Origin: Methanosarcina sp. | Lineage (GTDB): Archaea > Halobacteriota > Methanosarcinia > Methanosarcinales > Methanosarcinaceae | NCBI GenBank assembly: GCA_017883485.1 | Contig: JADGNM010000028.1 | Span: 1-12,836, forward strand | Direction: 5' to 3' | DNA: 12,836 bases | Shown: in pieces, positions 2,344 to 12,727 of the stretch | How positions within the stretch are numbered: position 1 is the stretch's first letter | Layout: each line of letters opens with the position of its first letter | Translations under genes and position numbers: made by a program | The notes under the pieces: generated by a model | The model's database searches: none | The model's input: only the letters and a program-made list of their open reading frames with translations | What the model was told of the DNA's origin: nothing

Positions 2344-2369
2344 TTGTAAAAATCTTGAGAATGGCTACA

Positions 2370-2494
2370 TTTTAACATAGAACGTTGGTATTTTTCCAGT
2401 TTCAAAGACTTTCTAATTTTACCATATTTTACAGCATATCGATTTTGAGTTTTATGACTCCAAATACCAACATTTATATGGAACGTTGGTATTT
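2370..2494 (+). promoter_or_regulatory. Three-arm site A upstream of the recombinase gene
   Basis: The 10-bp arm GTTGGTATTT occurs at 2384-2393, inverted at 2462-2471, and again direct at 2485-2494, all perfect. The two direct copies extend to an 18-nt match with one difference (2377-2394 and 2478-2495). The inverted copy and third copy form facing arms separated by 13 nt. The first arm is preceded by TTTTAACATAGAAC (2370-2383). The third arm ends 20 nt before the recombinase ATG. It could be the recombinase's own recombination site or its operator. A second site with the same layout but different arms lies at 4053-4158. Confidence 0.65.
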
Positions 2495-2514
2495 TAATTT
2501 TTGGAGTAATTTAA

Positions 2515-3084
2515 ATGGAAAATGGATTAGTGACAGCAGACGGCACAAAAGTATTAACCGTCGAAGAATATGACCGCTTCGTCCAGGCTGTACCAAATAA
2601 GTTCAGGCCTATTTTTGAAGTGAACGTAATAACGGGCTTGAGGTACATCGAACTTCAAAGGCTATATAAAAATCCGGGCTGGTATTTTCAAGATCGAAAT
2701 CAAATCATACTCCCGAAGGAAGCACAAAAAAAGGTAAAACAAAAAGCTCCAAAAAGGATTATAGACAAACTACCTTCGACTTTTCCATGTCTATTTAATG
2801 CCTTCTTAGATGGCAGGAGGCCGCCAGAACGTACCACATGGTGGGATAACCTTAGCAGGTGGTCTGAAAGGGCGAGAATCGAGCCAAAAGTAAGTCCGAA
2901 GACTCCAAGGAAGACTATAGAAAGTTGGATGCTAAAGGCAGGGATACCAGAGATTGAGATATATTCTCGCCAGGGACATGACCCGATAACCTCTCTAATG
3001 CATTATCAGAGCCTATCATTCACTGATTACGAAATGAGGGACATTGAAAAAAGGCTCACTGAGTGGGGAATACTGAGGAAATGA
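2515..3084 (+). CDS. Minimal tyrosine recombinase (phage/archaeal integrase family)
   Basis: This is a site-specific recombinase of the tyrosine family, which cuts and rejoins DNA through a covalent phosphotyrosine. The 189 residues cover only the catalytic domain; the N-terminal core-binding domain usual in 300-400-residue integrases is absent. Visible catalytic positions are Arg43 in TGLRYIE, a lysine in the strand around 68-80, Lys129-x-x-Arg132 in place of the common HxxR, His155 in RQGHD, and Tyr164 in MHYQS, nine residues after the histidine as in the family. A lysine at the first box II position also occurs in some archaeal integrases. The ATG at 2515 is supported by GGAG at 2503-2506. 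The four-cysteine mini-gene starts 6 nt after its stop, so the two probably form an operon. The set of residues looks complete, so it may be active. Its natural site is unknown; the three-arm repeat just upstream is the obvious candidate. Confidence 0.88.
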   Translation: MENGLVTADGTKVLTVEEYDRFVQAVPNKFRPIFEVNVITGLRYIELQRLYKNPGWYFQDRNQIILPKEAQKKVKQKAPKRIIDKLPSTFPCLFNAFLDGRRPPERTTWWDNLSRWSERARIEPKVSPKTPRKTIESWMLKAGIPEIEIYSRQGHDPITSLMHYQSLSFTDYEMRDIEKRLTEWGILRK

Positions 3085-3090
3085 AAATTT

Positions 3091-3234
3091 ATGTCTAAAA
3101 TCTTTGTCATCTTAGCGTGTCACAACTGCCCGCATTATGAACGGACGGGAAGTTATTGTTATGTGCTGCGGAAAACAGTCTATCCTGATAAGATTGATAG
3201 TGACTGTCCACTACCTGAGAATATGATGTATTAA
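3091..3234 (+). CDS. Four-cysteine mini-protein, 47 aa, downstream of the recombinase
   Basis: An ATG six nucleotides after the recombinase stop opens a 47-residue frame ending in TAA. It contains Cys10-x-x-Cys13, Cys23 and Cys39, with CHNCPHY near the start and a DCPLP motif near the end. The spacing suggests a small metal-binding, zinc-finger-like or iron-sulfur fold. Short proteins with a CxxC pair and a terminal DCPLP-type motif are, from memory, common in methanogen genomes. GAGG at 3075-3078 could serve as a distant ribosome site, or translation may be coupled to the recombinase. It may be a DNA-binding helper (directionality factor or repressor) for the recombinase, but that is inference from position only. 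Confidence 0.6.
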   Translation: MSKIFVILACHNCPHYERTGSYCYVLRKTVYPDKIDSDCPLPENMMY

Positions 3235-3352
3235 TGCATTAAAAGATTAGTTTATCACATCTCGGACACGTCACAGCATACTGATAGAAGGCCTTTTTAG
3301 GTCATGCCTGTAGCTGCCAGGATAACATTTTTAACACAAAAGGGGAAACTGA

Positions 3353-3612
3353 TTAATAAATATTGTCGTGATGATCGTAATCTTCCAGGATTACTGTCTT
3401 TAATTCCTCGTCGATGGAAAAAACAAGAACAAAGTGTCTATCAATATTACTCTTTTGAGATGGTTTAAAGGAGCATTGAGATTTTTGTACCTGTGTGGGT
3501 CCACCTGAATTTCGAATGCTTTTTTGAATATTGCTTCATACTGTATGATATTCTTTTTTTTGAGTTTGTTTAGCTTTTTCGAAAGCCCTGCATTAATCCC
3601 TAATTTGTACAA
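3353..3612 (-). pseudogene. RelE/ParE-like toxin, frameshifted
   Basis: Read on the minus strand from a TTG at 3612, one base after the antitoxin stop, the protein runs YKLGINAGLSKKLNKLKKK and so on to NHLKRV, then leaves the family pattern. Adding one base between 3448 and 3447 restores the typical C terminus (IDRHFVLVFSIDEEL, then a DYDHHDNIY ending) and a TAA at 3355-3353, giving about 86 residues. Methanogen RelE-type toxins, mRNA interferases that act at the ribosome, carry this RVHID...F.F...EEDYDHHD-like tail, so a single-base deletion is the simplest explanation. GAGG (3621-3618) precedes the TTG by 5 nt. Without repair the frame ends at 3400 with a nonsense tail and loses the conserved end. 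The gene overlaps or abuts the antitoxin as in a normal type II operon. A sequencing error is the main alternative. Confidence 0.7.
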
Positions 3613-3613
3613 G

Positions 3614-3877
3614 TTAATCCTCGTCTTCACCAGGTAAACTCTCAATATATGCTTTCAACTCATCAACAGTATTGAAAGGTCCTATAGGTTCTTCTTTCAT
3701 TATTTTTTGCATTTTCTCGATATATTCAGGTTTTAACTCTGGCTCTAGCATTTCCTCTTCATACTCAGCTACTATGAAATCAATAGCGGCACTTTCATCT
3801 TTTAAACCATATTTAGCTTTGATAACGCTCAAAATCTTATTCGTGCGGTCATCAATGTTTATAATCGCTTGAACCAT
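3614..3877 (-). CDS. Antitoxin of a type II toxin-antitoxin pair (DUF2683/RelB-like)
   Basis: The 87-residue acidic protein begins MVQAIINIDDRTNKILSVIK, a ribbon-helix-helix-like N terminus for DNA binding. It continues with a helix (DESAAIDFIVAEYEEEML) and ends with a toxin-binding tail (PIGPFNTVDELKAYIESL). This pattern matches the archaeal DUF2683 group, which sits before RelE-type toxins. I chose the ATG at 3877 because GTGAT (3886-3882) precedes it by 4 nt and the family starts MVQAI; a GTG at 3886 would add MIS. The toxin frame begins one base after its stop. Such antitoxins normally neutralise the toxin and repress their own operon. Here the toxin is frameshifted, so the antitoxin may be an orphan or act against related toxins elsewhere. 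Confidence 0.75.
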   Translation of the reverse strand: MVQAIINIDDRTNKILSVIKAKYGLKDESAAIDFIVAEYEEEMLEPELKPEYIEKMQKIMKEEPIGPFNTVDELKAYIESLPGEDED

Positions 3878-4052
3878 GCTTATCACATAAATGAAATGTT
3901 AACACCATATTAATTAATATCGTTTAAGGCCTGCATCCATGATCAAGCCAGGATAAGGACCTTATCGAGCCCTCAGCTGCCATGTGTTATATCCTGATTT
4001 CGTAGATTAAAGAATGTAGACAATTTGTCACTATATTTGAAAAATACACAGG

Positions 4053-4158
4053 TTTTAATGTAGAACCTATGCATTTTGGCGGTTTTAGCTTAAATTTTGG
4101 GGTGAATAAGGGCTCTGAACTCATAAAATGCATAGATTTTATTGTAACATGTGCATCC
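4053..4158 (+). repeat. Three-arm site B, orphan relative of site A
   Basis: An 11-bp inverted pair, CTATGCATTTT (4067-4077) and AAAATGCATAG (4125-4135), is followed after a 13-nt gap by a degenerate direct third arm at 4149-4158 (6 of 10 identical). The first arm is preceded by TTTTAATGTAGAAC (4053-4066), matching 12 of 14 bases at the equivalent place in site A. The 13-nt gap between second and third arms (4136-4148) has the same length as in site A and matches at 9 of 13 positions. The arms themselves differ from site A. No recombinase gene follows it. Confidence 0.6.
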
Positions 4159-4231
4159 GTATAAATGATGATTTTTTATGGTGAAGAAGATTATAGAGTG
4201 AATCAAATTTACAGAATTTCCGGTACACAGC

Positions 4232-4285
4232 CAAAACTCAGATAAGGAAAACTCAGAAAAGGGAAATTCAGAAAAGGAAAACTGT
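4232..4285 (-). repeat. Short A-rich tandem repeat, possible argS 3' termination zone
   Basis: Three to four degenerate 15-16-nt units of the type GGAAAACTCAGAAAA run in tandem. On the minus strand, downstream of argS, they give a series of short oligo-T tracts (TTTTC) about 150-200 nt past the argS stop. Multiple T-tracts are the usual archaeal termination signal, so this may end the argS transcript. That role is inferred. Confidence 0.45.
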
Positions 4286-4433
4286 GGAAGGTAAGAAGGG
4301 ATAGAAAACTATTCTCATTTCTTATCTCATTTTCTTCTTATATAGATACTCTTCTATCTTCCCTCCGATGTCGATTATTTTTGTCTCTTGCTTTCTCTAT
4401 TCCGCTTTCCCTCTTTACATCGATGCTCTCTTT

Positions 4434-6143
4434 TTACATAGATTCGGGGGCCGCGATTCCCAGAGTATCAAGAGAGTTTGCAAGTACGATCCTTGCACAG
4501 TCCACAAGAGCCAGCCTTGCAGCCCTGACATTTTCGCCCTCTGCGGCGATTACCGGAACAAAACGGTAGAACTGGTTGAAGGCATCGGCAAGTTCGCGGG
4601 CATAGATTGCAAGCACATGAGGCTTGATTTCGCGGGCTGCAAGGTCGATTATGCTGTCAAACATCGCAATTTTCTTGATTAAATCGATTTCACTGTCTTC
4701 GATGAGGAAGAGGGGGTCGATTTTCCCTGAGGGGTTCCATACTGCCTCTTCTTTTGCTTTTTCGAGGATGCTGCAGGCACGGGCGTGGGAATACTGGATG
4801 TAAGGGGCACCCTGTTTCTCAAAGTCGAGAGCTTCTTTCCAGTTGAAAACCGTGGATTTTTCAGGAGAGACTCTAACTATATCATATCTTACTGCACCCA
4901 TTCCAACCATTTCCGCAACCTGTTTCTTGAACTCGTCAGAAGTTTCCGGGCGGCGGGTTTCGACCTGTTCGAAGGCAGCTTCCGTGATCCTGTCAAATAG
5001 CTCGTCTGCACTTATGAACTGTCCGCGGCGGGTGCTCATAGAGCCTTCAGGAAGGGAGACGAACTCGAAAATCACTACCTCGGGTTCTTTGATCCCGATT
5101 GCATTCAGTGTAGCTTTTAGCTGGCCGGAGATAAATTTGTGGTCCGCCCCGAGTACGTCAATTATACGGTCTGCCTGGCTGGCTTTCCATTCATGGTAGG
5201 CAAGGTCTCTTGTAGTGTAAAGAGAAGTCCCGTTTGAGCGCTGGATAACAAGGGTTTTTTCAAACCCGTAATCCGAAAGATCTACCACAACGGCTCCTTT
5301 GTCTATTTTTGTCCTTCCGGTAGCTTTGATCTGCTCGATAATGTCATGCACAGCTCCGGATTTAAGGAAGCGGGATTCATTGACAAACTTGTCGTGGACT
5401 ACGTTTAAGCGAAGAAGGGTTTCCTTGATCCCGGAGATAGCCAGGGAAACCGCCTTATCAAAACTTTCGATGGTCTCAATATCCCCGGCTTCCACCTTTT
5501 CCATAAGGGCATCGATTTCCTTTACGTACTCAGGGTTTTTATCCAGCTCGACATTTGCCTTTATATATACTTCAGCGATGGCAGAGTCGGGTTTTTTGGA
5601 AAGGTCAAGCTCAAAGCGCTCACATGCCCAGGAGACTACCGCAATCTGACGGCCCATGTCATTGACATAGTACTGTACCTCAACATCGTACCCTGCGCAC
5701 CTGAGAATGCGGACAAGGGTGTCTCCGATAATCGAATTGCGGATGTGCCCGACATGCAGGGGACCGTTAGGATTTGCGGAGGTGTGCTCAAGGAGAATTT
5801 TATCCTTTGGGGCTCCGCATCCGAACTTTTCCTTTTTTTCGAGAACTACAGCTACTGTCCTGTTCAGGTAGTGTCTGCCTGCATGGAAGTTAATGTAAGG
5901 GCCTGAGGCATTTGCTTTCCCTATGTACGAGCCATCCGGGATTTCGATTGCATAAACAATACGGGATGCGAGCTCTTTTGGGTTTTGTTTGTAGAGGCTT
6001 GCCAGCCTGAAGGCAGCCCTGCTCGCAAGGTCGGCGTGAGAAGAGGTCTCGAAATAGAGTTCCGAATCTTCAATCTCAAATCCGACTTTTCGGATAGCCT
6101 CTTTTAAGATTGATTCAGCCTGAGCTTTGAGTTCCAGGAACAA
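4434..6143 (-). CDS. argS: Arginyl-tRNA synthetase
   Basis: This class I synthetase charges tRNA-Arg with arginine using ATP in the cytoplasm. From the TTG at 6143 it is 569 residues, a normal length. It has the N-terminal Arg-tRNA additional domain (about 1-110), the HIGH-type motif in SANPNGPLHVGH (HVGH at 130-133), the degenerate KMSKS equivalent MSTRRG (369-374), and a C-terminal DALR anticodon-binding domain (about 450-569) ending APESM. The TTG start is chosen because AGGTGAT (6154-6148) lies 4 nt before it and the product then begins MFLELKAQAESIL, as archaeal ArgRS does. A longer frame from 6200 would translate the 19-bp tandem repeat and is unlikely. Its GC content is clearly higher than in the accessory patch. 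It lies 226 nt downstream of prf1 on the same strand, with a terminator-like hairpin between, so it probably has its own promoter. Confidence 0.97.
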   Translation of the reverse strand: MFLELKAQAESILKEAIRKVGFEIEDSELYFETSSHADLASRAAFRLASLYKQNPKELASRIVYAIEIPDGSYIGKANASGPYINFHAGRHYLNRTVAVVLEKKEKFGCGAPKDKILLEHTSANPNGPLHVGHIRNSIIGDTLVRILRCAGYDVEVQYYVNDMGRQIAVVSWACERFELDLSKKPDSAIAEVYIKANVELDKNPEYVKEIDALMEKVEAGDIETIESFDKAVSLAISGIKETLLRLNVVHDKFVNESRFLKSGAVHDIIEQIKATGRTKIDKGAVVVDLSDYGFEKTLVIQRSNGTSLYTTRDLAYHEWKASQADRIIDVLGADHKFISGQLKATLNAIGIKEPEVVIFEFVSLPEGSMSTRRGQFISADELFDRITEAAFEQVETRRPETSDEFKKQVAEMVGMGAVRYDIVRVSPEKSTVFNWKEALDFEKQGAPYIQYSHARACSILEKAKEEAVWNPSGKIDPLFLIEDSEIDLIKKIAMFDSIIDLAAREIKPHVLAIYARELADAFNQFYRFVPVIAAEGENVRAARLALVDCARIVLANSLDTLGIAAPESM

Positions 6144-8671: not shown

Positions 8672-11600
8672 CTATTTCCATGAAGTAGGCGAGCCTGTAC
8701 TCATGTCATTAAAACTGACATTCAAAGGTGCTTTTCCTAACGTTGTGGATGCCGAAAATGCAGCAACAGGGGCTTCCAGAGAATTTATGACACTTACATA
8801 ACTGTATTTTGTTACCGCATTACTGCCAGCCTCATTACTTACTGTTAAGGTAACAGTATATTGCCCTACTTTATCGTATGTATGCATCGGGCTCTGCTCG
8901 GATGAAATACTTCCATCTCCAAAACTCCATTTCCATGATGTTACATTTTCAGATCTGTCTGTAAATTTCACGGAAAGGGGGACATAGCCACCAATAACAT
9001 TATCTTCAGGCTTTGCAACCATTATATAGCTGTTTTTTGCCACAGTGCTACTTCCAGCCGAATTATTTACCGTCAAGGTAATGGTATAGTTTCCTGCCGC
9101 AGAATAAGTATGCACTGGATTTTGGTCAGCTGAATTAGTTCCGTCTCCAAAGTCCCATTTCCATGATGTTGCATTTTCAGATAGGTCTGTAAATTGAACA
9201 GAGAGAGGAGTTCTGCCCATGGTAACATTGCTGCTGAAGTTTGCAACAGGAAGTGGGGGTTCTGAGATGTAACCAATAAACTGCCCGAAGGCATAAGGAT
9301 TATTTCCCACCTCCACTATGTCAGTAACCTCGTTTGTTGCAGTGTCAATTACAGAGACAGTGTTGCTACCCATGTTCGCAACATATACTTTTTTTCCATC
9401 CGGGGTGACTGAAACTCCCTCCGGCGAAGTTCCTACAGGCACTGTGGCTGTAATAGTATTTGTTGCTGTGTCAATCACAGAGACTGTATTGCTGCCTTCG
9501 TTCGTCACATAAACTTTTGTTCCTGTTGGGTTGATTGAAACTTCTTTAGGACTGGATCCTACAGGCACTGTGGTTATAACAGTGTTTGTTGCGATGTCAA
9601 TTACAGAGATAGAGTTGCTGTTTAGGTTCACCACATATACCTTTGTTCCCTCTGGGTTGATTGCAACTCCACAAGGATTGTTTCCTACATTAATCGTGGC
9701 TATAACAGCATTTGTAGCTGTGTCAATTACTGAGATTGTGTCAATTGCAGAGACGCCACTCCAGTCTGCGTTTGCCACATATACCTTTGTTCCATCCGGT
9801 GTGACTTCAATTCCAAATGGCCAGCTTCCTACATCAATGGTGTCTATAACATTTTTTGTAGCTGTGTCAATCACAGAGACAGTATTGCTGCCACGGTTCG
9901 TTACATACGCCTTTGTTCCTGTCGGGTTGAATGCAACTCCCCATGGATAGCTTCCAACAGGCACAGTGGTTGTAACAGTCTTTGTGGTTGTGTTTATTAC
10001 AGAGACTGTTTCTTCGTGATGATTCGTTACAAATACACTTTTTCCATCTGGACTGACTGCAACTCCATGAGGACCGGCTCCTACAGGCACCGTGGCTGTA
10101 ACAGTGTTTGTGGTTGTGTCAATTACAGAGACAGTATCGCTGTTTAGGTTTGGTATATATGCAAATTGTTTCCCACTGACAATTGTATTCTTTACTTCGT
10201 ACTCTACTATATAACCACCTAGCAGGGTATTATGAGAATTATCGTTCCAATATTCATTGCCATGAAAATGAAGTGACTCTTCTACTCCATCATAGTTATT
10301 AGGCTCTCCACTATTCCAATTGGTATAAACCCACGGTTCACCAGTTATCCATTGCCAGCCGCCATCGGGCTCTGCACTAGCATTTGGTTGGAAGCCACCT
10401 AACCAATGATCAGATGAACCAAGATTGTTAACAATGAAGTCATTTTCATCCTGAGAAGTGATCGTAGCCAGATGTCCATTCATACCTGAATAGGATAAAG
10501 ATTGAGCTTCATTTTTCGCGTCTTCCCAAGAAATGCCTCCCGTCACATTTTTCACTTCATAGTAGTGACCATTTCCAGAATAGTAAATTGGTGCAACAGC
10601 CTGAACTAGTATCGTAGCAGATTTCGAATTAATACCATTTGCATTGCTTACTGTTAGAGTAACGGTATAGGTTCCTGCCACAGTGTAAGTATGCATGGGA
10701 TTCTGCTCGGTTGAAGTATCTCCGTCTCCAAAGTCCCAGCTCCATCCAGTTGCGCTTTTAGAGAGATCTGTAAACTGCACGGAAAGAGGAGCATAACCCT
10801 CGGTGATGTCACTATTGAAATTTGCAACAGGAAGTAATGGTGGTTGTGCCGGAGGAGTACATATAAACTGTCCAAAAGCAGAAGGAACATTTCCTACCTT
10901 CGCCGTGTCTGTAACAGTGTTTGTTGCCGTGTCAATTATAGATACAGTATCGCTATTCCAGTTCGCGACATATACTTTATTTCCGTCTGGGGTGACTGAA
11001 ACTCCAAGAGGATTTCCATCTACTTTCACCGTGGCTTCAACCTTGTTAGTGGCTGTGTCAATTACAGAGACATTGCTGCTTAGCCAGTTAGTTACATATA
11101 CTTTTGTTCCTGCTGGGTTGATTGCTACTCCTTCAGGCCAAGCTCCTACATCTACCGTTGCTATGATAGTGTTTGTGGCTGTTTCAATTACAGAGACTGT
11201 ATCATAGTCATAGTAGCCTCCAAAGTTAGTCACGTAGACTCTTGTTCCATCTGGAGTAACTGCAACACCTTCAGGCTGACCTTCATGTATATTGTTTCCT
11301 AAGTTTACCGAGGCTGTAACAGTGTCTGTTACTGTGTCAATTATAGAGACAGTGTTGCTGCCTGTGTTCGCCACATATACCTTTATTCCATCCGGGTTGA
11401 CTGAAATTCCACGAGGATTGTTTCCGACAGGCACCGTGGCTTTAACAGTGTTTGTTGCCGTGTCAATTACAGAAACGGTGTTGTCGTCTAGGTTCGTCAC
11501 ATATACCTTCGTTCCATCAGGGGTAATTGCAATTCCATAAGGCCAATTACCTACATTCATATTAGCTGTTACACTGTTTGTGGATGTATCAATCGCAGAA

Positions 11601-12727
11601 ACAGTATTGCTTTTCGAGTTTGCCACATATACTTTTTTTCCATCGGAGCTGACTGTAACTCCTGTAGGCCATGCTTGTATGTTTTTGGGTACAGTTACCG
11701 TAGCTGTAATTTGGTTGGTTTCTGTGTCAATCACGGATACAGTATCGCTGCCGGCGTTTGTGATATATGCGTATGATCTTTGAGTAAGTACTGGTGAAAC
11801 TATAAACTGTCCTACGGACATACTCATAGACCCTATATTCACAGTGGCTACAACCCTGTTTGTTGCTGTATCAATTATAGAAGCAGTGCTGTCTCCACTG
11901 TTCGCCACATATACCCTTGTTCCATCAGGGGTGACTGAAACTCCATAAGGACTACTTCCTACATTCACAGTGGCTGTAACAGTGTTTGTTGCCGTATCAA
12001 TTACAGAGACAGTGTTGTAGTCGGAGTTCGCCACATAAGCTTTTGTTCCCGCCGGGTTAACTGCAACTCCAATAGGACCAGATCCTACATTCACCGTGGC
12101 TGTAACAGTATCTGTAGATGTGTCAATTACGGAGATATTGTTGCTATCAATGTTCGCTACATATACCTTTGTTCCATCAGGGGTGACTGCAATCCCCCAA
12201 GGTTTGCTTCCTACATTCACCGTGGCTGTAACAGTATTTTTAGATGTGTTAATTACGGAAACAGTCCCTTCAGCGTAGTTTGCCACATATGCCTTTGTTC
12301 CATCTGGGGTGACTGAAACGCCGGAAGGCTTATTTCCTACATTCACCGTGCCTGTAACAGTAATATTAGCATTATCAATTACAGAAACCGTATTACTGCC
12401 CAAGTTCGTAATATATACCTTTGTTCCTGCCTTATTGACTGCAGCGCCGAAAGGAGTGTATCCTACATTCACTTTGGCTGTAACAGTGTTTGTAGATGTG
12501 TCAATTACAGATACGCTGGCATCACGACCATTTGCTACATATACTTTTTTTTCATCAGGGGTAACTGCAACTCCACGAGGCTCTCCTCCTACATTCACTG
12601 TAGCCACAGCAGTATTATTTGCAGTATCAATTACAGTAACCGTATTACTGCCGTAATTTGTGATGTATGCATATGGTCCAGTGGGCGAAGAATTTTGCTC
12701 ACTTGCTGCCAGAGCAGTAGACGCCAT
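8672..12727 (-). CDS. Giant YVTN beta-propeller / PKD / C-type lectin surface protein
   Basis: This 1351-residue product is built of three seven-bladed YVTN propellers (about residues 18-303, 319-620 and 854-1148; 42-residue blades with VYVAN and NTVSVIDTATN motifs). It also has a PKD domain (632-710, WDFGDG), a C-type lectin domain (715-846), and PKD domains two to four (about 1159-1238, 1243-1315, 1319 on). The lectin domain has WLGG (775-778) and the EPN (808-810), Glu816 and WND (827-829) calcium-site residues. Such proteins are exported and form cell-surface or matrix adhesins in Methanosarcina. The ATG at 12727 is the first possible start, but no ribosome site precedes it and a TGA lies 12 nt upstream. 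The residues FLII-MASTALAAS look like the tail of a signal peptide whose beginning is missing. The frame ends at UAG in place of a conserved Trp. No C-terminal membrane anchor is seen. The gene may be decaying, or be expressed via read-through and an unseen start. Confidence 0.9.
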   Translation of the reverse strand: MASTALAASEQNSSPTGPYAYITNYGSNTVTVIDTANNTAVATVNVGGEPRGVAVTPDEKKVYVANGRDASVSVIDTSTNTVTAKVNVGYTPFGAAVNKAGTKVYITNLGSNTVSVIDNANITVTGTVNVGNKPSGVSVTPDGTKAYVANYAEGTVSVINTSKNTVTATVNVGSKPWGIAVTPDGTKVYVANIDSNNISVIDTSTDTVTATVNVGSGPIGVAVNPAGTKAYVANSDYNTVSVIDTATNTVTATVNVGSSPYGVSVTPDGTRVYVANSGDSTASIIDTATNRVVATVNIGSMSMSVGQFIVSPVLTQRSYAYITNAGSDTVSVIDTETNQITATVTVPKNIQAWPTGVTVSSDGKKVYVANSKSNTVSAIDTSTNSVTANMNVGNWPYGIAITPDGTKVYVTNLDDNTVSVIDTATNTVKATVPVGNNPRGISVNPDGIKVYVANTGSNTVSIIDTVTDTVTASVNLGNNIHEGQPEGVAVTPDGTRVYVTNFGGYYDYDTVSVIETATNTIIATVDVGAWPEGVAINPAGTKVYVTNWLSSNVSVIDTATNKVEATVKVDGNPLGVSVTPDGNKVYVANWNSDTVSIIDTATNTVTDTAKVGNVPSAFGQFICTPPAQPPLLPVANFNSDITEGYAPLSVQFTDLSKSATGWSWDFGDGDTSTEQNPMHTYTVAGTYTVTLTVSNANGINSKSATILVQAVAPIYYSGNGHYYEVKNVTGGISWEDAKNEAQSLSYSGMNGHLATITSQDENDFIVNNLGSSDHWLGGFQPNASAEPDGGWQWITGEPWVYTNWNSGEPNNYDGVEESLHFHGNEYWNDNSHNTLLGGYIVEYEVKNTIVSGKQFAYIPNLNSDTVSVIDTTTNTVTATVPVGAGPHGVAVSPDGKSVFVTNHHEETVSVINTTTKTVTTTVPVGSYPWGVAFNPTGTKAYVTNRGSNTVSVIDTATKNVIDTIDVGSWPFGIEVTPDGTKVYVANADWSGVSAIDTISVIDTATNAVIATINVGNNPCGVAINPEGTKVYVVNLNSNSISVIDIATNTVITTVPVGSSPKEVSINPTGTKVYVTNEGSNTVSVIDTATNTITATVPVGTSPEGVSVTPDGKKVYVANMGSNTVSVIDTATNEVTDIVEVGNNPYAFGQFIGYISEPPLPVANFSSNVTMGRTPLSVQFTDLSENATSWKWDFGDGTNSADQNPVHTYSAAGNYTITLTVNNSAGSSTVAKNSYIMVAKPEDNVIGGYVPLSVKFTDRSENVTSWKWSFGDGSISSEQSPMHTYDKVGQYTVTLTVSNEAGSNAVTKYSYVSVINSLEAPVAAFSASTTLGKAPLNVSFNDMSTGSPTSWK

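Follow-up and report, generated by a model that had tools for sequence, protein, structure and literature searches.

The contig JADGNM010000028.1 of Methanosarcina sp. (assembly GCA_017883485.1; genome G000 here, an incomplete assembly of 2.83 Mb in 453 contigs) was analysed over a stretch of 12,836 nt, referred to below as the window. It carries a gene for a 189-aa tyrosine recombinase (2515..3084, forward strand), a set of repeated arms upstream of this gene (site A) and, further along, a similarly built set (site B) with no recombinase gene beside it. What these two sites are, and why one of them stands alone, is the question that the locus raises. An earlier note on this DNA had proposed that they are recognition sites for a family of minimal recombinases with changing specificity, an idea that sequence comparison across the family largely supports. 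The evidence points, quite probably although with room for doubt, to a self-contained site-specific recombination module of the Methanosarcinaceae in which one palindrome, IR1, would be the recombination core and a second, IR2, the promoter-operator. This evidence was read from sequence (layout, shared arms, core, TATA position, mixed sites, re-paired flanks and carriage by viruses and plasmids), and arm binding, strand exchange at IR1 and repression at IR2 are what we infer from it.

Comparison of the upstream DNA of recombinase homologues showed that each of the "three-arm sites" described in the earlier note resolves into two palindromes. IR1 spans 31 bp (an 8-bp arm, NTTTT, about 5 free bases, ARAAN and a second 8-bp arm), and IR2 spans 29 bp, with its arms around a 13-nt TATA-like centre. 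In site A, the putative recombination core IR1 (2361..2391, forward strand) reads ATGGCTAC-ATTTTAACATAGAAC-GTTGGTAT and is interpreted below as a hybrid, while the putative promoter-operator IR2 (2464..2492, forward strand) has perfect arms, ATACCAAC and GTTGGTAT, around the TATA-like centre ATTTATATGGAAC. Site B, on the same strand, consists of a putative orphan core of the CAYAG class, ATACACAG-GTTTTAATGTAGAAC-CTATGCAT (IR1, 4044..4074), a 53-nt linker (4075..4127) and ATGCATAG-ATTTTATTGTAAC-ATGTGCAT (IR2, 4128..4156), in which the right arm is partly decayed. The left arm of each IR1 had not been seen before: in B it is ATACACAG at 4044-4051, which forms a near-palindrome with CTATGCAT, and in A it is ATGGCTAC at 2361-2368, which is off its partner at 3 of 8 letters and only 1 letter away from ATAGCTAC, an arm class of other family members. 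The three-arm layout is real, with its parts regrouped as two palindromes and the missed left arm added to each site. All three arms of A were confirmed (2384-2393, 2462-2471 and 2485-2494), and so were two arms of B, one at 4067-4076 and, inverted, one at 4126-4135; the third arm of B is weak, with 6 of 10 letters agreeing by eye. A repeat search recovered the shared stretch before the first arm as three copies of 23 nt (74% between A and B), so the 14-nt leader reported as common to both sites exists, not as a separate part but as the constant centre of IR1.

Recombinase homologues were found in 35 of 99 related genomes and in 8 of 25 genera, and the named close homologues are mostly from Methanosarcina. 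The loci compared comprised the best match place in each of 30 genomes and 20 further fetched regions. Out of 79 upstream rows, 66 (64 different loci) were kept, the others being dropped where the alignment started after residue 30 or fewer than 200 nt of upstream DNA were available. In the strict test, in which the best free-arm IR1-IR2 pair of each row was scored against 60 dinucleotide shuffles, twin palindromes scored above all shuffles in 31 of the 66 upstream regions, including that of the window (39 versus 34). Most of these 31 loci (24) had a start-to-start spacing of 83-86 between IR1 and IR2; the window had 103 and L002 had 107, and the remaining five were at 119-121. The IR1 centre was 15 nt long in 24 loci, 16 in four and 14 in three. 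Even though pairs were chosen by their arms alone, the 15-nt centres read TTTT...ARAA in 23 or 24 of 24 loci at each position, around a variable middle. The IR2 centre is TATA-like, with T at position 2 in 31/31 and A at position 9 in 30/31 loci, and lies 23-39 nt before the aligned recombinase start in 27 of the 31 (50, 54, 54 and 100 nt in the other four); some of these starts are uncertain, since 9/31 loci have none of ATG, GTG and TTG as the aligned first codon. The facing pair 13 nt apart, which had been suggested as the core site, is IR2, the palindrome on the TATA-like box, and not the likely core.

A scan for IR1 with free arms led to the same picture. At most one arm mismatch was found in 22 of the 66 upstream rows and two mismatches in 30, compared to no site with one mismatch or fewer in a background of 800 kb, sampled at even intervals from two genomes of the same genus; five shuffles gave 0-1 per 400 kb, and a direct-arm version of the pattern matched twice in one of these genomes and never in the other. 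The exact CAYAG core occurs in 5/30 genomes and an exact CGAAC-armed site in 10/30, while the reversed controls occur in none. Arms are present upstream of many homologues and the layout is not equally common in shuffled DNA, the two points on which the earlier note had made the link between recombinase and sites depend.

The protein itself seems to be a tyrosine recombinase reduced to its catalytic domain. PF00589 is its sole Pfam match (34.7 bits versus a gathering score of 27.1) and is matched at E<=1e-3 by all 46 aligned family members. Residues R43, K73, K75, K129, R132, H155 and Y164 are invariant in 46/46 sequences; K129 occupies a position where His is usual, the assignment of catalytic residues was guided by a weak alignment to IntI4, and the catalytic Lys would be either K73 or K75. 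The AlphaFold2 model (mean pLDDT 89.5, pTM 0.87) has the tyrosine-recombinase catalytic fold without a core-binding domain, and its best solved structures by E-value are XerA (5hxy), the Tn1549 integrase (6emy) and IntI4 (2a3v), with E 2.8e-4 to 9.9e-4 and TM-scores of 0.62-0.66 by query length; weaker matches include the catalytic domain of SSV (3uxu, E 0.036) and the phage repressor SroF (E 0.23). No sequence relatives were found in the PDB for the single protein, and weak ones were found for the family profile. A precedent for a tyrosine recombinase without a clamp domain is provided by FimB/FimE. The homologues of L081, L083, L087, L093 and L104-L106, which come from genomes assigned to Clostridia, Patescibacteria, Tenericutes, Cloacimonadota or Omnitrophota, are on contigs of 3-25 kb that probably belong to archaea or viruses and were misbinned.

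Based on these features, the module would consist of the catalytic-domain-only recombinase and two cognate palindromes before its gene. IR1 would be the core, with two 13-bp half-sites (8 class-specific bases plus the constant TTTT part) around about 5 free bases, within which strands would be exchanged. Since IR2 repeats the arms around the TATA box, recombinase bound there would shut its own promoter; in most members IR2 could double as an accessory site about 82-85 bp, or 8 helical turns, from the core. The autoregulatory operator that the earlier note had offered as an alternative is thus probably right for IR2, as the promoter-operator of the recombinase gene, whereas IR1 reads as a recombination core. 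Recombinase clades would have drifted to different arms, with IR1, IR2 and the protein changing together, viruses and plasmids would carry the module, and chromosomes would retain copies, with new flank pairings, hybrid sites and sites lacking a gene as the products of recombination at IR1. Site A would then be a copy with a probably hybrid core and site B an orphan twin site of another class.

The proposed change of specificity can be followed in the arms. A protein tree was built from 43 sequences, made up of 13 hand-labelled extra rows and 30 of the 31 loci (the remaining one was too short). By inspection, it broadly groups the classes CAYAG, CAGTA, CGAAC, CCAAC and, in Methanolobus, CTTGTC-like; the GCWAC rows form no single supported clade. 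The claim that arms vary between sites but agree within a locus, with the layout kept, was borne out to the extent that arms broadly change with the recombinase clade. Several CCAAC members have an IR1 with a CGAAC left arm and a CCAAC right arm. Residues 110 and 111 are W and D in the CCAAC class, F and E in CGAAC, and N and K or R in GCWAC; these residues are candidates only for a role in specificity, because arm class and descent are confounded.

Two observations make IR1 look like a crossover site, namely the re-pairing of flanks and the mixing of arm classes. Flanks were clustered for 57 CGAAC- or CCAAC-armed sites in the fetched loci (some with 3 mismatches and partly chance), and flank families were found joined to varied partners at the palindrome: F0 with F1 (4 sites), F3 (3), F2 (1) or unrelated DNA (4), F1 also with F7 (3) or an unrelated flank (3), and F3 also with two unrelated flanks. 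By eye, L158 (13-nt centre, outside the 57) has the same left flank as L003, and its right side is 87% identical to the corresponding side of L153. In flank families F1 and F2, again by eye, a CGAAC-type core is often preceded by a CAYAG-like site some 40 nt to its left; a similar stretch, gcaggatgcttcaata, connects the two, as though the two classes were arranged in tandem.

With regard to arm classes, 72 of 82 sites with a constant core and class arms have one class in both arms and 10 have two, compared to 0 in 800 kb of background. Two of the 10 are ambiguous (ATACAAAC opposite a CGAAC-like arm), three combine CGAAC with CCAAC, and five combine GCTAC with CGAAC or a CCAAC-like arm, leaving 8/82 unambiguous mixed-class sites, including site A (GCTAC x CCAAC). 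The IR1 of A is probably a hybrid of a GCTAC-class left arm and a CCAAC-class right arm. Its left arm, ATGGCTAC, is also found in L165 and, opposite ATAGCTAC, in L057, and the chance that three random arm changes land this near GCTAC was estimated as 0.012 (0.039 for any other class). Moreover, contig C106 of the window's genome (L271, 4.6 kb) contains two perfect cores (117-147 and 1281-1311), one of the GCTAC and one of the CCAAC class, about 1.1 kb apart, with a 137-aa open reading frame (ORF) between them. Exact CCAAC arms with the constant core occur in 0/29 other genomes and exact GCTAC cores in 2/29; only matches with the core were counted, because coreless TACCAAC-N-GTTGGTA matches 2 other genomes and its reversed control 3. 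The presence of both pure core types in the window's genome makes the hybrid reading of A attractive.

Site B, judged by its arms and dimensions, is an orphan twin site of another subfamily, in line with the earlier suggestion that it may be left over from another family member. Its IR1-IR2 spacing of 84 and its linker fit the 19 gene-bearing linkers compared (52-54 nt). The linker matches those of four gene-less sites, which were themselves found by similarity to B, with z 5.0-11.7, and in comparisons with the 19 gene-bearing linkers six (L008, L019, L023, L045, L046 and L093) beat all 300 shuffles or all but one. This kinship is not class-specific, since L008 is of the GCTAC class. No convincing gene remnant was found in a search of 3100-4500 with 23 queries; the best match (E 0.006 over 38 residues) falls within the twin site but on the other strand, and on the same strand after B no match is better than E 3.6. 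A 5'-truncated recombinase fragment nearest the CAYAG class is present on contig C248 of the same genome. DNA relatives of B were found in 18/30 genomes at E<=1e-3, many rows being little more than the palindrome. Among 20 fetched B-like loci, 14 had no recombinase match, three had a gene, two had a fragment and one was the window. B is gene-less, as had been noted, but it is not unique in this.

Several loci hold closely related copies of the module. Identity among L051-L054 and L056 is 93-96% over a segment that begins at IR1 and ends shortly after the stop codon, with flanks that are otherwise mostly unrelated; similarity between L051 and L056 extends to +662 and that among L052, L053, L054 and L055 to about +1335. 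L052-L055 have an inverted third site (unreadable in L054, which has N there) and a reversed segment with toxin-antitoxin-like genes, recognized by eye; L052 and L055, which share the left flank too, are probably one syntenic locus. A second site follows the gene in 6 of 22 loci, inverted at +635 in L052, L053 and L055, and direct in L068 (+841/+1697), L069 (+1068/+1918) and L070 (+839/+1690), where IR2-like sites occur 84-86 bp after the first. In all, 15 distant sites were found in the 22 loci, compared to a permuted-arm mean of 3.4 and maximum of 8; 10 of the 15 are from L068-L070, which share much downstream DNA and are probably one syntenic locus. In 19 further loci there was no excess (6 sites versus mean 3.45, maximum 6), and a second site near every copy was rejected. 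The direct repeats of L068-L070 lie upstream of a gene cluster that by eye is exopolysaccharide-like (L068 was read), and this repeat region is possibly regulatory or phase-variable.

Viruses and plasmids also carry the module. Seven viral-contig loci encode close homologues, and 6/7 have twin palindromes. L120, L121, L123, L124 and L125 share a spacing of 104 (103 in the window) and the centre AAGAT, with left arms ATAGCAAC, ATGACTAC (twice), ACAACTAC and ATCACTAC; in L122 only IR2 was found, and L124 encodes a minor-head-like protein nearby. The pattern with the viral centre was found in 1/30 genomes, the window's own. Homologues with 44-49% identity are present on five plasmid records of 32-58 kb, all from Methanosarcina. 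The three plasmids read (one for 43 of 58 kb) are circular records that also encode ParA-like or segregation ATPases, and each has one IR1, before the gene. On the M. barkeri MS plasmid (L267), the annotated integrase (12407-13228) starts upstream of IR1 (13124-13154) and for this reason is probably annotated too long at its start.

Several observations weigh against this interpretation. As many as 35 of the 66 upstream rows fail the strict shuffle test, and L028, L103-L105 and L114-L116 are among the loci without a clear palindrome pair. Seven of the failures are CAGTA loci whose arms are too A+T-rich for the filter of the test (they score 37-39 of 48 in a looser scan without shuffles), two of the 66 rows are short matches in L047 beside that locus's real gene, and in several viral loci the palindrome pair is farther from the gene. 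The tree has exceptions: L002 and L003 have CGAAC IR1 arms among CCAAC members, with IR2 arms that are CCAAC-like, and L017, L035 and L043 have arm sequences of their own. In addition, the loci are related by descent, and the agreement between classes and tree was judged by eye. CCAAC and CGAAC are one letter apart and ATACAAAC is equally near both, so that 5/10 mixed sites could be point changes or misassigned; GCTAC and CCAAC differ by two letters. The left arm of A could be a decayed CCAAC arm, with a chance of about 4% that decay brings it within one letter of another class. IS-like (insertion sequence-like) DNA, seen by eye in some flanks, may account for part of the re-pairing, and copies differ in where the repeated unit ends on the right: near the stop codon, at +662 or at +1335. 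Finally, no attL/attR pair was found around a provirus or plasmid. The viral-locus protein of L120 had 0 matches in 30 genomes, a search that shows little as it had no positive control, and the matches listed for two 5.5-kb regions around near-identical copies in the 30 genomes included no clean empty site.

One alternative, which overlaps with the recombination module, is a multimer-resolution system of plasmids and viruses, for which tnpR-res and TnpI-IRS are models. IR1 would be the crossover and IR2 the accessory site, and chromosomal copies would derive from integrated plasmids. This explanation is possible but rather unlikely as a full account; it fits the five plasmids, the three read being circular records with segregation genes and a single core before the recombinase gene, and multimer resolution may be the main role of the module on plasmids. 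Dispersed chromosomal copies, mixed-class sites and viral copies, on the other hand, call for intermolecular recombination too, and integration, plasmid resolution or both are candidate roles of the module. It is improbable that both palindromes are only operators of an autorepressor with a recombinase fold, any recombination taking place at another site. The position of IR2 on a TATA-like box, the near-fixed distance of IR1 (83-86 bp start to start in 24/31) and the match to SroF would agree with such a repressor, but catalytic residues invariant in 46 sequences, mixed-class cores and flank re-pairing would be unexpected for an operator, and perfect IR1 sites exist without a recombinase gene nearby.

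An integron-like arrangement, in which IR1-IR2 pairs would be cassette boundaries and the recombinase gene one cassette among others, seems more doubtful still. The direct site arrays after the gene in L068, L069 and L070 (3/22 loci) and the toxin-antitoxin-like genes between A and B recall cassettes; these three loci probably represent one syntenic locus, however, the L068 segment after the second pair has no convincing gene, and the score for the XerA/integron model, 19, is below its cut-off of 220. That the palindromes arose by chance in A+T-rich promoters has almost nothing to recommend it beyond the imperfect IR1 of A and the weak third arm of B, given the outcome of the shuffles and the 800-kb background, the near-constant geometry and the class-specific arms, though chance could be the origin of the decayed right arm of IR2 in B.

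Comparison of the putative recombination module with known systems revealed partial likenesses. FimB/FimE and other catalytic-domain-only invertases are similar in size to the 189-aa protein, but in the family a second inverted site near the gene was found only in L052, L053 and L055 of 22 loci. Tn916/Tn1549 integrases include one of the structural matches (6emy) and have coupling sequences that differ between copies, as do the IR1 centres of the family; they are set apart by the outer half-site with recognisable arms in the family, where no element ends or arm-binding domain were seen. In Tn4430 TnpI-IRS and Tn3 tnpR-res, a recombinase gene also lies beside a core and accessory binding sites near the promoter. 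The second site of the family seems to differ in repeating the palindrome with a 2-bp shorter centre. SSV-type suicidal integrases are likewise archaeal tyrosine recombinases of viruses and plasmids, with a weak fold match (3uxu), but because the putative core is upstream of the gene, insertion would not split the gene as in the SSV type. The archaeal XerA/dif system shares a simple tyrosine recombinase, and XerA (5hxy) is the best fold match by E-value. According to passages of PMC8371274, dif is a palindromic core with a short spacer (28 bp, 11-6-11). The IR1 of the family instead is 30-32 bp long (8-bp arms, centre 14-16), has arms that differ by clade and, at 31 bp, lies beside the gene of its own recombinase, which at about 190 aa has no N-terminal core-binding domain and reaches only 19 bits in the XerA equivalog NF040815 (cut-off 220). 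Simple tyrosine recombinases as treated in passages of Smyshlyaev et al. (PMC8138268) usually have a core-binding domain before the catalytic domain, whereas the 189-aa model has the catalytic fold only. From the same genus, SsrA of Methanosarcina acetivorans pC2A is a plasmid tyrosine recombinase for which passages of PMC9569500 discuss multimer resolution as a possible role. It has 314 aa and is outside the five plasmid matches. Compared pairwise with 23 family members, it gave nothing convincing (lowest E among the matches listed, 0.018), and a scan of pC2A that allowed up to 3 arm mismatches and covered one strand over 5.4 of 5.5 kb detected no IR1 pattern.

Other features of the window include a toxin-antitoxin-like pair on the reverse strand between the recombinase gene and B (3400..3886), formed by a DUF2683 protein (3614-3886) and a weakly YafQ-like protein (3400-3645; 19.3 bits versus a cut-off of 87), which is either cargo or a neighbour. 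Immediately before IR1 of A is a small ORF of 64 aa (2149-2343), hydrophobic by eye and without Pfam or NCBIfam match; upstream of this ORF, two inverted 27-nt copies separated by 61 nt (1934-1960 and 2022-2048) are 89% complementary and may represent a hairpin or a small mobile element. The reverse strand at 8672-12727 has a large repetitive gene that by eye is surface-protein-like, and no Rfam match to structured RNA was found in the window.

While tyrosine recombinases are a known enzyme class, the twin-site module was not found in the literature searched (titles and starts of abstracts, with few subscription journals or preprints covered), and apparently new features are the module, the arms that change by clade about a constant core, and sites that are orphan or of mixed class. 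Taken together, and more tentatively than the module itself, these features could describe a natural series of catalytic-domain-only recombinases in which specificity resides in a changeable 8-bp arm around TTTT-N5-ARAA, with six or more classes. Cross-reacting classes would make hybrid cores, the network of orphan and hybrid sites would shuffle viruses, plasmids and toxin-antitoxin cargo, and each recombinase would throttle itself via a site over its own TATA box; that all of this holds jointly is somewhat doubtful. If the module is real, the family would offer, ready to use, very small site-specific recombinases whose half-sites are readable and specific to the clade, and natural pairs for studying how tyrosine recombinases, which are sought as genome tools, change specificity; the two cores of C106 would be a natural substrate for testing. 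The sites of new members would be predictable from upstream DNA alone, which would amount to an attachment-site rule for the viral and plasmid integrases of this lineage, and part of the mosaic intergenic DNA of Methanosarcina would be explained.

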